A DNA stretch of 64,000 nucleotides from Ruegeria sp. HKCCSA071. Its GTDB lineage: Bacteria; Pseudomonadota; Alphaproteobacteria; Rhodobacterales; Rhodobacteraceae. A program made the position numbers and the translations under genes. The notes beneath the pieces were generated by a model, which saw only the letters and a program-made list of their open reading frames with translations, ran no database searches and was not told where the DNA came from. The DNA is taken from assembly GCF_017872555.1 (NCBI RefSeq), contig NZ_JAEDOX010000002.1, positions 62,001 to 126,000 on the forward strand. The letters run 5' to 3'. Positions 5,668 through 13,672 of this stretch are shown in pieces; the first letter of the stretch is position 1, and every line of letters begins with the position of its first letter.

Positions 5668-7050
5668 TCAGCCTTTCATCACCCAGATATCCATCGGTGT
5701 ATCTACACCGCGCACGGATTGATCGGTAAGCTCTGTAAAGCCAGTCATGGCGACAGACGCAGACTGGTTCTCCTCTGCGATCCGCGCGCGCACGGAATCG
5801 CTGACCACGATACGCGCCTGCAAATCACGCGTCAGCGCCTCAAGCTTGGCCGCGACGTTGACGGCATTCCCGATGACAGCAAATTCAAGTCGGTTCGCGC
5901 CAATGTCTCCCAGCACGACCGAGCCATAGTGCACCCCGATCCCGACGTGGATTTCAGGCTCTCCCGCCCGGCGGCGGTCCAGATTCCATCGGTCGATCAC
6001 GCTGACCATCGCGCGTGCACATCCCAGCGCGTTGCTTGCATCCAACGGCGTGGGCACCGGGGTGCCAAAGGTCGCCATCAGACCATCCCCCAGATACTTG
6101 TCCAGAGTTCCGTGGTGGCGAAAAACTTCGGTTTCCATGCGGGCGTGAAAGCCCCGCAGCACTTCGATCACGTCATAAGGATCGCGCCCGGCGGCGTATT
6201 TCGTAAACCCGACGATGTCGATGAACAGAACGGCCACATTCTCTTTTCGGACCTGTTTCAGCGGCTCGTCATTCTGGCTCAGCTCCTCTACCACGTTGGG
6301 CGAAAAATAGCGTGACAGGTTGGCCCGTTCCCGTTCCAGCCCTGCATTGCTCATCAATAGCCGGTTCAGCCGCTGCATCGAAAGGCCCAAAGTCACGGCC
6401 ACCATCATGAACACGATCACCTGCTGGATGCGCTGAGGCGCCATGAAACTGTTCGGATCCAGAAGCTCGGCAACATCCGGGTAGCCTTGCAAGGCGGCTG
6501 CAACTTTTTCGCTGATCCCGGGAATAGGCGTTGCGACCCACCAGGCAACGATCCACCCGATCGACCACATCATCGCCGTCCAGGACCCGATGGCGATCAC
6601 GGTCCGCCAGGAATAAGCCAATGTGCCCGCGGCCAGAATGATGAAGAAGTACTGAAAGTTGTCGAACCGGTATTGCATGGCCAATGGCCTGACATCATCG
6701 CTGAAGGGATTGGGTACGATCATCCCGAGCGTCATGATCAGCAGGTCGACGAAAATCAAAAACAACTCGCCCCGCGATTGCCCGACACGACCTGCACGGC
6801 GGATCAACCACCCGTTGGCGCAGATCAGCAGCAGAATGAAATGATACCAAAGCACCTCCCATTGCGGGTTCAGAAAAATGAGCAGCACCGCAGTCAGCGC
6901 CATCGCCACCCATCGCGCACGCACAGCCAGTTCCAGACCCTCGCGCTTGTGCCGTTCCAACGCAGCCTCGGTATATTTGTTGTCCAGATCAAACGCATCG
7001 GGCTGGGTGAAAAACAGGCTTCGGCGGGGCTGTGCGGTCGTCTCGGTCAT
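5668..7050 (-). CDS. Membrane-bound class III adenylate/guanylate cyclase
   Basis: The 460-residue protein has an N-terminal membrane domain with about six hydrophobic segments (roughly residues 48-220) and a C-terminal class III cyclase domain (about 265-430). The metal-binding aspartates are visible in FIDIVGFTKYA and in KYLGDGLMATFG. The position normally holding the transition-state arginine (NxxxR) reads NVAAK, so lysine replaces arginine. The linker LSRYFSPNVVEELSQ matches the signalling helix usual in such cyclases. It probably makes cAMP in response to a membrane signal; the ligand is unknown. It lies downstream of ccrM but behind a terminator, so it is likely a separate transcript. 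Confidence 0.88.
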   Translation of the reverse strand: MTETTAQPRRSLFFTQPDAFDLDNKYTEAALERHKREGLELAVRARWVAMALTAVLLIFLNPQWEVLWYHFILLLICANGWLIRRAGRVGQSRGELFLIFVDLLIMTLGMIVPNPFSDDVRPLAMQYRFDNFQYFFIILAAGTLAYSWRTVIAIGSWTAMMWSIGWIVAWWVATPIPGISEKVAAALQGYPDVAELLDPNSFMAPQRIQQVIVFMMVAVTLGLSMQRLNRLLMSNAGLERERANLSRYFSPNVVEELSQNDEPLKQVRKENVAVLFIDIVGFTKYAAGRDPYDVIEVLRGFHARMETEVFRHHGTLDKYLGDGLMATFGTPVPTPLDASNALGCARAMVSVIDRWNLDRRRAGEPEIHVGIGVHYGSVVLGDIGANRLEFAVIGNAVNVAAKLEALTRDLQARIVVSDSVRARIAEENQSASVAMTGFTELTDQSVRGVDTPMDIWVMKG

Positions 7051-9587: not shown

Positions 9588-9763
9588 GATGCCTGTCCTT
9601 TCGGATGTTCGTGCGACCGCATGACGGACCGCGTGCTGATTGCCCTGAAAGTGGGGGCACCTGCCCCAGACAAGCAATAACGGCCCGGTGTTATCGGATA
9701 TCAGGCGCCGCAAACCCCTTGGGTTATTGAATATCGCGACAACTCATGCGCAGGATGCGGCCT

Positions 9764-10051
9764 ATGAAACAGATCCTCTCTTCTCTGACCTTTGCGGCCC
9801 TGTTATCGCTTGGTTCTGCTGCGACAGCGGCAGATTGTTACGCGGACTACAAAGCCAAGAAGGACAACCCGCTGCGTTTGCATTACGGCGTCATGCAGGT
9901 CACAAACTGCGACAAGGGGCAGGCCCGGGCAGAAATCGCCCAGCGCCTGAACGCATCAGGTTGGACCTTGCTTGAAGTGCAGTCCGTTTTCGGACCCGAA
10001 GGGTTGGATCAGAGGAAAGGCAATGCCGGACAATTCTATCTCCGTTTCTGA
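9764..10051 (+). CDS. Small exported protein, upstream partner of the membrane winged-helix gene
   Basis: This 95-residue protein has a signal peptide (MKQILSSLTFAALLSLGSAATAA) and a mature part of about 70 residues with two cysteines (DCYADYKAKK; VTNCDKGQAR), which could form one disulfide. The text LRLHYGVMQV, then AEIAQRLNASGWTLL, suggests a compact alpha/beta domain. I recognise no named family. Two other in-frame ATGs lie just upstream (9746, 9755); I chose 9764 because it begins the signal peptide. Its 3' end overlaps the next gene by 29 bp, implying translational coupling with the membrane winged-helix protein. Confidence 0.65.
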   Translation: MKQILSSLTFAALLSLGSAATAADCYADYKAKKDNPLRLHYGVMQVTNCDKGQARAEIAQRLNASGWTLLEVQSVFGPEGLDQRKGNAGQFYLRF

Positions 10052-10724
10052 AGCACGCCGGTCGGGTGTCCGGCTGGTTGTGCTGGGCATCGCGGCCATT
10101 GTCGTCATTCTGATCACCGCTGCCGTTTTCCTGTTCTGGACCTTGCCGGACGCAAATGCGTTCAACGCACGTGTCGAGCGGTTGTTTGTCGAGGCCGATC
10201 TGACGTCACAGACCGAGATTCGTCTGCTTGAAATTCTGGCCCAGTCTGGCACCGCCTTTGCCGACACCCTGTCCAGTTATCGGATGGTGATTTATGTGCT
10301 GCTGGTTTTTGCCAGCGCGATGATGATCTCGGCGTTGGTCTTTCTGGTGATGCTGGTCTTGTTGAACCGGCGCATCGCACAGATCGAACGTACCGGCATT
10401 CAGGTAACGTCGCTGCTGATCAGTCGCGAAGAAAACACTGTCTACCTTAACAACATGGATTTCAAGCTGACACCTGCCGCCATGGAAACCCTGTCGATTC
10501 TGGCGGAATCCCGGTTGGATGACGAGGTATTGTCCGGCGCTCAGATCGAGGCCATGATTTCCGGTCGCGATGCCGCCGATTGTGACGAAGCCGCTGGCGC
10601 AACACGGATCAAACGGTTGCGCGACGCGCTTGGCAACCAGATGGTCAGCGAATTGCTGGTCAAGAATATTGCCAAGAAGGGGTATATGCTGTCGATCGAG
10701 AAAGACGTCATTCAAATGGTCTGA
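10023..10724 (+). CDS. Membrane-anchored winged-helix protein
   Basis: The 233-residue protein has two transmembrane helices (about residues 16-40 and 87-115) flanking a roughly 46-residue periplasmic segment, and a cytoplasmic C-terminal domain (about 137-226). That domain reads like an OmpR/PhoB-type winged helix: FKLTPAAMETLSIL, then GATRIKRLRDALG, then VKNIAKKGYMLSI. The last two match the recognition helix and the wing, which commonly ends G-x-G-Y. ToxR and CadC are membrane-bound OmpR-type regulators, but their DNA-binding domain is N-terminal; here it is C-terminal. The ATG at 10023 has AGAGGAAAGG upstream. A direct DNA-binding role is inferred. Confidence 0.7.
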   Translation: MPDNSISVSEARRSGVRLVVLGIAAIVVILITAAVFLFWTLPDANAFNARVERLFVEADLTSQTEIRLLEILAQSGTAFADTLSSYRMVIYVLLVFASAMMISALVFLVMLVLLNRRIAQIERTGIQVTSLLISREENTVYLNNMDFKLTPAAMETLSILAESRLDDEVLSGAQIEAMISGRDAADCDEAAGATRIKRLRDALGNQMVSELLVKNIAKKGYMLSIEKDVIQMV

Positions 10725-10828
10725 CGTTTTGACGCGTCGCTCGCGCCCGGTAAAATCCCGTTGCGGCCTCTTGGAATGTCAGGTGGAAAGCCCCATTCTA
10801 AACAAACCCCAGGCAGAGGAGGTCGCTT

Positions 10829-12403
10829 ATGAACGTCCACGCCGCGCCGCAGATGAATGGATATGGAATCTCGGTTGAGCCGCTGGATGGCAGGATTGCC
10901 ATTTACCGGAACGACGTTCTTCTGGCTGAAAGCACAAACGCAAAGGTGATGTATGAAACGCGTTTGCCGCCAACGATTTACGTTCCCCGCGCAGATGTCT
11001 GTGTGGATCTGAGCGAAGAAACAGACCTGCAAACATTCTGCCCGTTCAAAGGCACCGCCACTTACCACGACATCAATCTGGCGTCTGAAAGCCTGGCCAA
11101 TTCTGTCTGGGCCTATGAAGAAGCGCTGCCCGAAAGTGCTGCCATTCAAGGCTGTATCGGGTTTGTGTCCGGCGCCTACACCCGTATTGATCTGGGCGAC
11201 AATCGCCTGCGCGAGCCGGACGACGGCAATATCAGCGGACCACTGATCGACTGGCTGATGCGCGGTGCTTCAGCCGCGACCACGCCCGAAAGCTTTACCA
11301 AGGCATTGGCCGCAAAGATGCTGGAGCACGGCATCGCCATCCAGCGGCTGAGCATTCTGGCCTGGTCCTTGCATCCCCTGATCGCGGGCAAACACTATAT
11401 CTGGGAAAAGGGTCAGGACGAGATACTGACCCGCGCCCCGACCTACGAAATCTATGATCACCCGGCTTTCATCAACAGCCCGTTGCGCCATGTCTCGAAC
11501 GGTTTGGGCGGTGTACGGCAAAGACTGAACGACGAAAACCCGCAAAACAGCTTCCCGATCATGGAGGAGTTACGGGCCAAAGGTGCCACCGACTATGTCG
11601 CGATGCCGTTGCCCTTCTCTGACGGGCGAACGAACGTTCTGACCCTGACATGTGACCATCCCAACGGGTTCACCACCGAGAATCTGGGCCTAGTGTTCGA
11701 ATGCTCCTCGGTGATCGCCCGCTTTTACGAAGTGTTCATGCAACGCGAGAATGCGCAGGTTTTGCTGGAAACATATGTTGGAAAACGCTCTGGCGCACGC
11801 GTATTGGGGGGCGAGATCCGGCGCGGTGACGGGGATGAAATCGACGCTGCAATCATGTTCTGTGACCTCCGCAACTCGACAAGCCTAGAAGAGAAACTGG
11901 GGCGGGGCGCATATATCAGTGTTTTGAATGAGTTCTTTGAAACCGTCTCGGGTATCGTTCACGAAAACGAAGGCGAAGTTCTGAAATTTATTGGTGACGC
12001 TGTTTTGGCAGTTTTCCCGGCAACCGATGAAAACGCCAGCGCGGCCCGGGCTAACGCCCAGCGCTCGGCAATCAAAATCGTCGAAACGTTGGGAGAATTG
12101 CGCAAAGCAGGTACCGACATACATTGCGACTGTTCGATTGGCGTGGCTTATGGGCGTGTCACATATGGCAATGTGGGCTCTCGTGAACGTCTTGATTTTA
12201 CGGTTATTGGACAAGCAGCTAACATTGCTGCGCGCTTGGGCGAATATGGGAAAACCGAAGGGCATCGCATAGTCGTATCCGAAGATATCGAGCCTGCCTG
12301 TTCTAACGCTATACCGTTAGGCGCGGTCAACCTGCACAACGTGTCTCGACCCGTTGTATGCTACGCTTTGCACACCACAACCGACGAGATTTTGAACGGT
12401 TAA
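10829..12403 (+). CDS. DUF427 domain - class III nucleotide cyclase fusion
   Basis: The 524-residue protein joins an N-terminal DUF427 domain (about residues 15-115) to a C-terminal class III cyclase domain (about 335-500). DUF427 signs include YETRLPPTIYVPRADV, the CPFKGTATYHDI motif and AWAYEEALPE-like text. The middle section (about 150-320) may be a GAF-like sensor. In the cyclase domain the metal aspartates appear in FCDLRNSTSLEE and KFIGDAVLAVF, and the transition-state pair in NIAARL, so catalysis is plausible. The start has GGAGG at good spacing. It has no transmembrane segment. It lies 104 bp after the membrane winged-helix gene on the same strand. Confidence 0.82.
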   Translation: MNVHAAPQMNGYGISVEPLDGRIAIYRNDVLLAESTNAKVMYETRLPPTIYVPRADVCVDLSEETDLQTFCPFKGTATYHDINLASESLANSVWAYEEALPESAAIQGCIGFVSGAYTRIDLGDNRLREPDDGNISGPLIDWLMRGASAATTPESFTKALAAKMLEHGIAIQRLSILAWSLHPLIAGKHYIWEKGQDEILTRAPTYEIYDHPAFINSPLRHVSNGLGGVRQRLNDENPQNSFPIMEELRAKGATDYVAMPLPFSDGRTNVLTLTCDHPNGFTTENLGLVFECSSVIARFYEVFMQRENAQVLLETYVGKRSGARVLGGEIRRGDGDEIDAAIMFCDLRNSTSLEEKLGRGAYISVLNEFFETVSGIVHENEGEVLKFIGDAVLAVFPATDENASAARANAQRSAIKIVETLGELRKAGTDIHCDCSIGVAYGRVTYGNVGSRERLDFTVIGQAANIAARLGEYGKTEGHRIVVSEDIEPACSNAIPLGAVNLHNVSRPVVCYALHTTTDEILNG

Positions 12404-12479: not shown

Positions 12480-13274
12480 TCACACAGCCCCAAGCAAGAT
12501 TAAAGCGGTCTGCGCTGGCGATATCGTACTCTGAAGGCCCGCGATTTGACTTCTGGCCAGATAGGCGTCGGTCAGGTTCTCCACCGCCTTCTGGTCCGAA
12601 AACTGTGCCAAATCATCCGATCCGGTAAGGCGGAAAAGCCGACTTTTAAATTCGTCCAATTGTTTGTCGATATCTAGTTGGGCGAATGACTGCGGCAGCC
12701 CAAGCGCCGTTTCCATCATTTTGCGCAGTGGTGGCAATCCCATAAGATCGAACCATTTCGTGTCTGTACTGTTTCCACTTTTCGCCAGGTCAGACAGCTC
12801 GCGCTGGGCATAGAGCGAGATGCGCATCGTTTCATCCGACTGCCCGACCGCAATCTCAAACCGCGCAGACAGATTGGCCTGGGCTATCTTTTCCATATTG
12901 GTTACTAGCACCGTTTTTCGAACAGCCCCTGGCCCAAACCCGAAAGCATCTGAAAATTCCCGGTACCGTTTATCCGCCAAACGATTGGACAAAGCGTCCT
13001 CCGCCCGTGTTCCATCCTCCAGGATTTTCCGGATAAAGAACCGGTTATCCACATCCCCTTCCAGCCCAAAGGCACCCAAAGCGACCTGCAACAATCTGCG
13101 GTCCGAAACCAACTGTTCGGCGGTCTTCACTTTCCCGATGTTGTCCAGGAAATACCTTGTCTCCCTCTCATTCACTGCCGAAGACGAGAAACTTTGAAAC
13201 TGACCTTGATAAGTACGTTGCAGAAGCCGCCAGCCGACGATTCCGCCAGTCGGAATGACAGGTTGAAAGCTCAT
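12480..13274 (-). CDS. DUF1217 flagellar-locus protein
   Basis: The 264-residue protein belongs to the DUF1217 family, found in alphaproteobacterial flagellar clusters; its molecular role is not established. Text such as TRYFLDNIGKVKTAEQLVSDRRLLQVAL and the later RKILEDGTRAEDALSNRLADKRY is characteristic. It is mostly helical with no signal peptide. The start at MSFQPVIP overlaps the flbT stop in an ATGA arrangement, so translation is probably coupled. It is the last gene of the fliC-flaF-flbT group. Family members are probably secreted or structural flagellar factors, but that is inferred. Confidence 0.8.
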   Translation of the reverse strand: MSFQPVIPTGGIVGWRLLQRTYQGQFQSFSSSAVNERETRYFLDNIGKVKTAEQLVSDRRLLQVALGAFGLEGDVDNRFFIRKILEDGTRAEDALSNRLADKRYREFSDAFGFGPGAVRKTVLVTNMEKIAQANLSARFEIAVGQSDETMRISLYAQRELSDLAKSGNSTDTKWFDLMGLPPLRKMMETALGLPQSFAQLDIDKQLDEFKSRLFRLTGSDDLAQFSDQKAVENLTDAYLARSQIAGLQSTISPAQTALILLGAV

Positions 13275-13672
13275 TGCTGATAGGCCATCAACCGTTCTTC
13301 GCGCGGAAGAAGCGAGCGAAGTGATTTGAGGCATTTATAATATTGCTCGGCCACCAACGCATCTGTCACCTCGGACAATACACAGCGGCTGTCTGTATCT
13401 GTAAAAACCTGGCTCAGCTCTTCGACGCTGCGCAACAGATGTTGACGTGCCCGAGCCGGATCCATGTCTCCGGACAGAACAAGCTGTGCGGCATAGCAGA
13501 CACGGCGCACCGGAGTATTTACTTCATCCGGGTGTATCGCATCGCGCAGCCGCAGGACATTGGCCTGCGGCGTCATGATCGAAAACCGGCCACGGCGGTC
13601 GCCGTTTTCAATCACAACACCATTGATCAGCACCCTTTCCTTCGGGGCGAGTTTCAAAACCAGCCCGCTCAT
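13271..13672 (-). CDS. flbT: Flagellin regulator FlbT
   Basis: FlbT binds the flagellin mRNA leader and represses its translation until the hook is assembled (known from Caulobacter). The 133-residue protein starts MSGLVLKLAPKERVLINGVVIENGDRR, which is characteristic of the family. The later text TPVRRVCYAAQLVL and the helical C-terminus also fit. It sits directly after flaF with stop and start sharing a base, and is followed by an overlapping DUF1217 gene. The likely target is the long flagellin leader in this window. Confidence 0.93.
   Translation of the reverse strand: MSGLVLKLAPKERVLINGVVIENGDRRGRFSIMTPQANVLRLRDAIHPDEVNTPVRRVCYAAQLVLSGDMDPARARQHLLRSVEELSQVFTDTDSRCVLSEVTDALVAEQYYKCLKSLRSLLPREERLMAYQQ

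Follow-up and report, generated by a model that had tools for sequence, protein, structure and literature searches.

A recurrent fusion of DUF427 to a predicted GAF domain and a class III cyclase in Ruegeria and other Alphaproteobacteria

The gene at 10829..12403 (+) of the window, the 64,000-nucleotide stretch of Ruegeria sp. HKCCSA071 DNA that was analyzed, encodes a protein in which a DUF427 domain precedes a predicted GAF domain, a signaling helix and a class III nucleotide cyclase. Comparison of sequences across genomes indicates that the fusion is an old and recurrent architecture, not a local peculiarity. We favor, with modest confidence, the reading that it is a soluble, homodimeric class III (IIIb-type) adenylate cyclase in which a GAF core supplies one input and DUF427 a second.

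One gene encodes DUF427, a predicted GAF domain and a cyclase domain

The open reading frame at 10829-12403 (+) encodes 524 amino acids, with an ATG start, a TAA stop and no internal stop codons in frame. A likely ribosome-binding site (AGGAGG, 10817..10822, +) is separated from the ATG by a six-base spacer; 2 matches of the AGGAGG type were observed in the window and 2.4 were expected by chance, so the site taken alone is weak support for the start. Pfam analysis of the protein returned PF04248 (DUF427, also called NTP_transf_9) and PF00211, both above their curated cut-offs, and the middle of the protein had no match, to the GAF profile or any other, at E values up to 1. A full-length structural model had a mean pLDDT of 87.7 and a pTM of 0.74. 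Because a fold search with this model returned mostly cyclases, a separate AlphaFold2 model of residues 1-326 was used, which was built from 61 aligned sequences (mean pLDDT 91.5, pTM 0.85). The domain order is DUF427, GAF, signaling helix and cyclase, with GAF assigned from its predicted fold alone. The gene as a whole was supported by the reading frame, the Pfam matches, full-length homologues and signs of purifying selection. The fusion is not an artifact of assembly or frame, since it occupies one open frame and the same domain order recurs across genomes, at least one of which (G1013) is a single-contig assembly.

Selection was assessed by comparing the window gene with 11 Ruegeria orthologues. 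Median dN was far below median dS in all five segments (ratios 0.005-0.11), with values of 0.086 (DUF427), 0.043 (GAF), 0.005 (helix) and 0.063 (cyclase). These ratios are rough, as dS approached saturation and took a finite value for 4-10 of the 11 orthologues. The values indicate purifying selection on all segments within Ruegeria. For broader comparison, 57 fusion rows were aligned, 37 from roseobacters (12 family-draw fusions and 25 taken from the best 80 named relatives); the class draw supplied the other 20, one of which (L284) is also a roseobacter. These rows represent 56 loci, as L008 and L111 are the same locus and were both counted in this alignment and in the GAF-cyclase tree; L008 was left out of the DUF427 residue comparison and the DUF427 tree as identical to L111, which left 36 roseobacter fused domains. 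Mean identity within DUF427, GAF and cyclase was 60%, 70% and 68%, respectively, in 36 roseobacter rows and 35%, 42% and 42% in 19 class-draw rows.

The N-terminal domain is a DUF427 domain with the residues of its family

The DUF427 domain, which has a beta-tent fold, covers residues ~12-123 (10862..11197, +) and was identified by Pfam, phmmer and the predicted model. PF04248 scored 86.8 bits over residues 25-113 (cut-off 22.1, E 9e-25) and 90.8 bits in the genome search; the HMM search thus supported the N-terminal DUF427 domain of the original prediction. A phmmer search against solved structures matched the N-terminus to 3djm, a DUF427 protein of Rhodobacter sphaeroides (49.4 bits), and the model of residues 13-123 superposed on 3djm_C with a Z score of 18.4 and 1.4 A over 109 residues. 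The two domains have sequence profile, fold and conserved residues in common, yet the domain in the window, unlike 3djm, fronts a signaling enzyme.

Conserved residues were compared among 36 fused, 19 pepP-linked and 41 other DUF427 domains. Glu43, Tyr51, Pro53, Cys71, Lys74, Gly75, Ala77, Tyr79, Trp94, Tyr96, Ile106 and Phe112 were kept across the family, and all of them are present in the window protein. Cys71 and Glu43 occur in 57/57 fusion rows and Lys74 in 56/57; in the other DUF427 domains Cys71 and Lys74 are kept in at least 94% and Glu43 in 85% or more. The 20 class-draw fusions retain the residues checked almost throughout, with P53 in 19 cases, Y79 in 16 (His in 4), W94 in 17 (Phe in 3) and F112 in 19, and Thr44, Arg45 and Phe70 are among the extra residues fixed in roseobacter fusions. 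Cys71 is the only position in DUF427 conserved as cysteine, which fits the missing zinc site described for DUF427 in the available text of PMC4287342, where the domain is said to occur mainly in bacteria and fungi.

On the predicted strands the conserved residues often alternate (51/53, 69/71 counting Thr/Ser69, 75/77/79 and 94/96), an arrangement that would put many of them on one face of the sheet, like the lining of a pocket. In the beta-tent domains CULT and MsrB, according to the available text of PMC4287342, the fold has an aromatic groove in which ligands bind. By analogy, the groove of these domains and the one-faced conserved residues favor a ligand-binding role for DUF427; the conserved Cys71 and Lys74 would suit a catalytic role just as well. 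No molecular function or enzyme activity for DUF427 was found in those parts of the open-access literature that were searched. In the available portions of two papers, PF04248 is linked to EC 1.14.99.29 by a predicted association of 'silver' grade, a database association only (PMC5307852), and DUF427 is named in one table row on domain enrichment (PMC3388012).

A predicted GAF domain and a signaling helix lead into the cyclase

The possible sensor that had been suspected between DUF427 and the cyclase now has a candidate fold. The AlphaFold2 model predicts a GAF domain at residues ~136-282 (11234..11674, +), and the model of residues ~133-314 matched the GAF structures 3o5y (Z 13.8, rmsd 2.7 A over 138 residues) and 3k2n (Z 13.0); it also matched LuxR-type ligand-binding domains (LasR, Z about 12.6). 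The middle domain is therefore described here as a predicted GAF-like fold of divergent sequence. It is followed by a signaling helix region at residues ~283-334 (11675..11830, +), with predicted helices at 283-317 and 319-325, the former of which runs on towards the cyclase. This region is the most conserved segment of the roseobacter fusions, with a mean identity of 85%.

The GAF-cyclase part of the protein (residues 139-487) also matches the phage protein family phrog_34154 with 163 bits, which suggests that GAF-cyclases of this kind are present in records classed as viral.

The cyclase domain retains its catalytic positions

The catalytic domain of the class III cyclase covers residues ~335-515 (11831..12373, +). 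PF00211 matched residues 340-487 with 51.9 bits against a cut-off of 21.9 (E 9.1e-14), and the nearest solved structures were the photoactivated cyclases OaPAC and bPAC, then CyaB, Cya2 and CyaC. The cyclase had been called apparently intact, and it keeps the positions that we take to be catalytic from class III cyclase structures. The metal ligand positions Asp346 (11864..11866, +) and Asp390 (11996..11998, +) are Asp in 57/57 fusion rows, and the adenine-selecting position Lys386 (11984..11986, +) is Lys in 51/57 and Arg in 6/57. Thr458, the second substrate-selecting position (class IIIb type; 12200..12202, +), is kept in 56/57 rows with one gap, and the transition-state positions Asn465 and Arg469 (12221..12235, +) are kept in 55/57 (one Ile, one gap) and 56/57 (one gap), respectively. 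The shortfalls at these last three positions are accounted for by the one Ile and by a class-draw fusion (L282, genome G973) that stops before the end of the catalytic domain. The window protein itself has both metal Asp residues and the Asn/Arg pair (D346, D390, N465 and R469), together with K386 and T458, presumably the class IIIb adenylate cyclase pattern.

Arg386 was found in 6/20 class-draw fusions. In six fusions (L271, L273, L274, L276, L280 and L283) Arg at 386 occurs together with Glu at the Asp456 position, a pair that hints at a changed substrate pocket.

OaPAC, bPAC, CyaB and CyaC have catalytic domains near that of the window cyclase, and we assume that the layout of sensor, helix and cyclase is common to all of them. 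The sensors of OaPAC and bPAC are BLUF domains and those of CyaB and CyaC are other domains; we know of no DUF427 in these four proteins. With 17 matches to PF00211 and 9 cNMP-binding matches, the source genome could have many cyclases that act side by side.

The fusion recurs across alphaproteobacterial families

A fusion was counted where one match spanned nearly the whole query, among the matches listed; the family, order and class draws are overlapping samples, in which the best few candidates per genome were scored. The fusion was found in 12/149 genomes of the family draw, at 58-100% identity, and in 59/390 genomes of the order draw, which included 24/24 of the window's genus and members of 12 further genera. 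Every genome listed in the order draw belongs to the window's family, and a sharp gap followed the fusions (E 1.6e-199 versus 8e-65 for the next matches). The class draw gave 20/385 genomes, of which three belong to the family and the remaining 17 to 11 other families; these 17 have 19 loci at 38-47% identity. Of the 325 named relatives, the best 80 were headed by Ruegeria, and the fusion was also present in Tropicibacter, Falsiruegeria, Seohaeicola, Leisingera, Phaeobacter, Parasedimentitalea, Shimia and others.

The plasmid copy of Parasedimentitalea marina is annotated 'DUF427 domain-containing protein', a name that omits the cyclase. In this species a block of site-specific DNA methyltransferase, RNase HII and fusion genes lies on a 110-kb plasmid record (L345, NZ_CP033223.1 28010-41548).

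DUF427 was found in 95/398 genomes of the phylum draw, about a quarter. The view that DUF427 is usually a stand-alone domain agreed with the sampled loci, where it occurs alone or as a tandem pair, and in ten long open frames from outside the family DUF427 was the sole Pfam domain, present twice in one of them. No paper on the DUF427-cyclase fusion was found in the open-access literature searched, and among papers on Ruegeria, adenylate cyclase and cAMP or on rhizobial GAF cyclases none dealt with this protein in its title or the opening of its abstract; any user of Pfam could see the architecture.

DUF427 was probably joined to an older type of GAF-cyclase

The closest relatives of the C-terminal part are alphaproteobacterial GAF-class III cyclases of ~400 residues, whose GAF, helix and catalytic domains align to residues ~130-515 at ~28-40% identity. 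Several occur per genome, many of them on rhizobial replicons. These paralogues differ from the fusion in the absence of DUF427, which matched in 0/26 of those examined. The two groups are further distinguished by Gly227 and Gly228 of the GAF domain, which are present in 57/57 fusion rows versus 7 and 11% of the 26 paralogues.

In a midpoint-rooted tree of the 57 fusion rows and 26 paralogues, the fusions formed one clade (support 0.98) apart from one DUF427-less member, L287, inside it. A single clade implies that the fusion has kept its DUF427 while some dozen alphaproteobacterial families diverged. To see whether L287 is a split gene, a DUF427 gene was sought in the 17 kb around it and none was found; the sole DUF427 match of that genome is on another contig. 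Given its nested position and this result, loss is the simplest reading, and L287 is perhaps a natural deletion of DUF427.

Origin of the fused domain from the local stand-alone paralogue was rejected, as the fused domains do not group with pepP-linked DUF427s. A smaller DUF427 tree placed the fused domains beside one domain of the tandem protein L156, which was numbered d2 from the order of the hits (support 0.994). In a larger tree 56 fused domains and four of six tandem first domains formed one group, with support of only 0.625, and the other two tandem first domains adjoined the fused group, which is separate from the stand-alone DUF427 domains of the window's family. Pairs of DUF427 hits at tandem spacing occurred in 11/17 class-draw genomes with a fusion. 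The fusion probably arose when a tandem-type N-terminal half was joined to a GAF-cyclase, although tree support for this is weak, and the event probably took place early in or within the Alphaproteobacteria.

DUF427 as a proposed second input to the cyclase

A two-input adenylate cyclase is the best explanation of the observed domain order, intact frame, catalytic and DUF427 consensus residues and long conservation, taken together with the model-predicted folds. We infer from these the cAMP product, dimerization, a ligand for DUF427 and allosteric coupling. The cyclase dimer would make cAMP from ATP, and the two N-terminal modules, stacked on the signaling helix, would set its activity. GAF would be the old regulatory core common to many paralogues, to which the DUF427 beta-tent would add a second input: a ligand in the DUF427 groove would shift GAF and the helix and thereby change the alignment of the two catalytic halves. 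Since the GAF-cyclase core occurs without DUF427 in many paralogues, GAF may be the principal input, with DUF427 as an addition. GAF-cyclases presumably work without DUF427, and the DUF427-less clade member L287 suggests that the domain may be dispensable. A fuller version of this proposal, in which DUF427 is a small-molecule sensor with a groove of Tyr, Trp, Glu, Lys and Cys, the cyclase family is a dual-input cAMP switch derived from a tandem first half and a GAF-cyclase, and the ligand is maybe derived from an amino acid or small peptide, seems unlikely as a whole.

The lower conservation of DUF427 relative to GAF and cyclase, seen in both roseobacter and class-draw rows, counts against an input through DUF427. 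It would suit a passenger domain that was joined by chance and tolerated while GAF does all the regulation, as would the one apparent loss in L287. We consider such a passenger very improbable, as the family residues are almost always kept in the 57 fusion rows, dN/dS is low and the fusion is present in 24/24 sampled genomes of the genus. DUF427 might instead be a docking or dimerization module that binds no small molecule and places the cyclase at a partner or stabilizes the dimer. The beta-tent Rab exchange factor MSS4 acts through protein contacts (available text of PMC4287342), and GAF is already the likely sensor in the paralogues; the conserved residues, however, are those of DUF427s generally, in varied surroundings, which a common ligand or chemistry fits better than one partner does, and docking seems unlikely.

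The same residues bear on an enzymatic role, in which a reaction involving Cys71, Lys74 and Glu43 would make or remove the ligand sensed by GAF. Their near-invariance in fusions, their high retention in other DUF427 domains and the catalytic cysteine of MsrB, a protein of related fold (available text of PMC4287342), speak for such a role. However, Glu43 or the cysteine could be structural, and the open-access literature, as far as it was covered, yielded no DUF427 activity, the link to EC 1.14.99.29 being a database association only in the accessible part of PMC5307852; we regard an enzyme as quite unlikely.

The original prediction had valued the fusion as a handle on what DUF427 senses. This holds as a fair proposal, and its value as a handle is greater for an architecture that is old, wide and recurrent; GAF, however, is the shared regulatory core, and sensing by DUF427 is putative. 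Because the fused cyclase converts the binding of a ligand into a product that can be measured, candidates are screenable by enzyme assay or in an E. coli cya mutant that carries a cAMP reporter. With representatives in about a dozen alphaproteobacterial families, there are many variants to compare, including L287, without DUF427, as a contrast. If the sensor reading is true, the cyclase would be the first readout of what DUF427 binds.

Other DUF427 loci offer a weak ligand lead

Non-fused DUF427 genes were examined for neighbors that might point to a ligand. Twenty stand-alone or tandem Rhodobacteraceae loci were picked from matches in the genome and family searches, and 19 of them had pepP (M24, aminopeptidase P) upstream on the same strand, 18 within about 150 bases and L153 at 0.8 kb; tandem L156 had none. 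Among 84 further loci (50 from the phylum draw, 30 of these with 1.5 kb flanks only, 20 fusions and 14 tandem), pepP was present at two only (L228 and L232), both of the window's family, and no pepP link was seen outside the family. The stand-alone DUF427 gene of the source genome (contig C11, L140 5962-6303) lies directly after an aminopeptidase P gene.

By raw count, oligopeptide-type ABC genes were beside or within 5 kb of tandem DUF427 in 5/16 loci (L156 and L321-L324), four of the five being from one genus and two of these from one genome. The tandem DUF427 of L156 directly follows an oligopeptide-type ABC operon that encodes a binding protein, two permeases and a double ATPase (L156 54-6390). 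Outside the family, 116 neighbors of 38 non-fused loci were classified, comprising 115 of 150 ORFs (mainly shorter ones were dropped) and one ABC ATPase frame in L239 added by hand; as the ORFs were chosen by length, some are antisense frames. No family was prominent: LysR regulators were the commonest, with 5, followed by two each of POT (di/tripeptide transporter) and M19 (dipeptidase). The ten genes downstream of tandem DUF427 had no common family beyond pairs. An amino-acid or peptide-like ligand for DUF427 is a weak lead, not a result, and the neighboring genes gave no clear ligand for the DUF427 of the fusion.

The genomic neighborhood of the fusion is inherited

The gene upstream of the fusion (9972..10724, +) lies 104 bases from it, is possibly co-transcribed with it and encodes a membrane protein that has a winged helix at its C-terminus (PF00486, 27.4 bits, narrowly over the cut-off of 26.2). 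It looks like an uncharacterized membrane-bound transcription regulator and is preceded by a small ORF at 9746-10051. On its other side the fusion gene faces opposite-strand genes read as flagellar, with DUF1217 at 12480-13334. The gene order ccrM-rnhB-p194-p101-wHTH-fusion hardly varies in the best 80 of the 325 named relatives, and p101 and wHTH lie upstream of the fusion in 79/80 loci, the 80th being cut by a contig end.

This arrangement was considered as a clue to the ligand but is no proof of a pathway, because the p101-wHTH block is older and is present in fusion-less genomes of the family, which makes the order an inherited one. The wHTH gene was found in 117/149 family genomes, most of them without the fusion, and in 12/12 fusion-less genomes examined p101 and wHTH were present but no fusion followed. 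Two of the 12 family genomes with a fusion (G100 and G139) carry it on a different contig from wHTH, and the fusion locus of G078 has neither p101 nor wHTH. No common family was found among 90 neighbors of 19 class-draw fusions, where the top count was 3/90; since these neighbors share nothing beyond that, the fusion protein appears self-contained.

A second class III cyclase gene lies at 5668-7050 (-), upstream of the fusion and adjoining DNA methyltransferase and RNase HII genes. It encodes 460 amino acids with a PF00211 match of 86 bits and a hydrophobic-looking N-terminal half, and it keeps its place in 75/80 named loci (best 80 of 325) and in 5/12 fusion-less loci.
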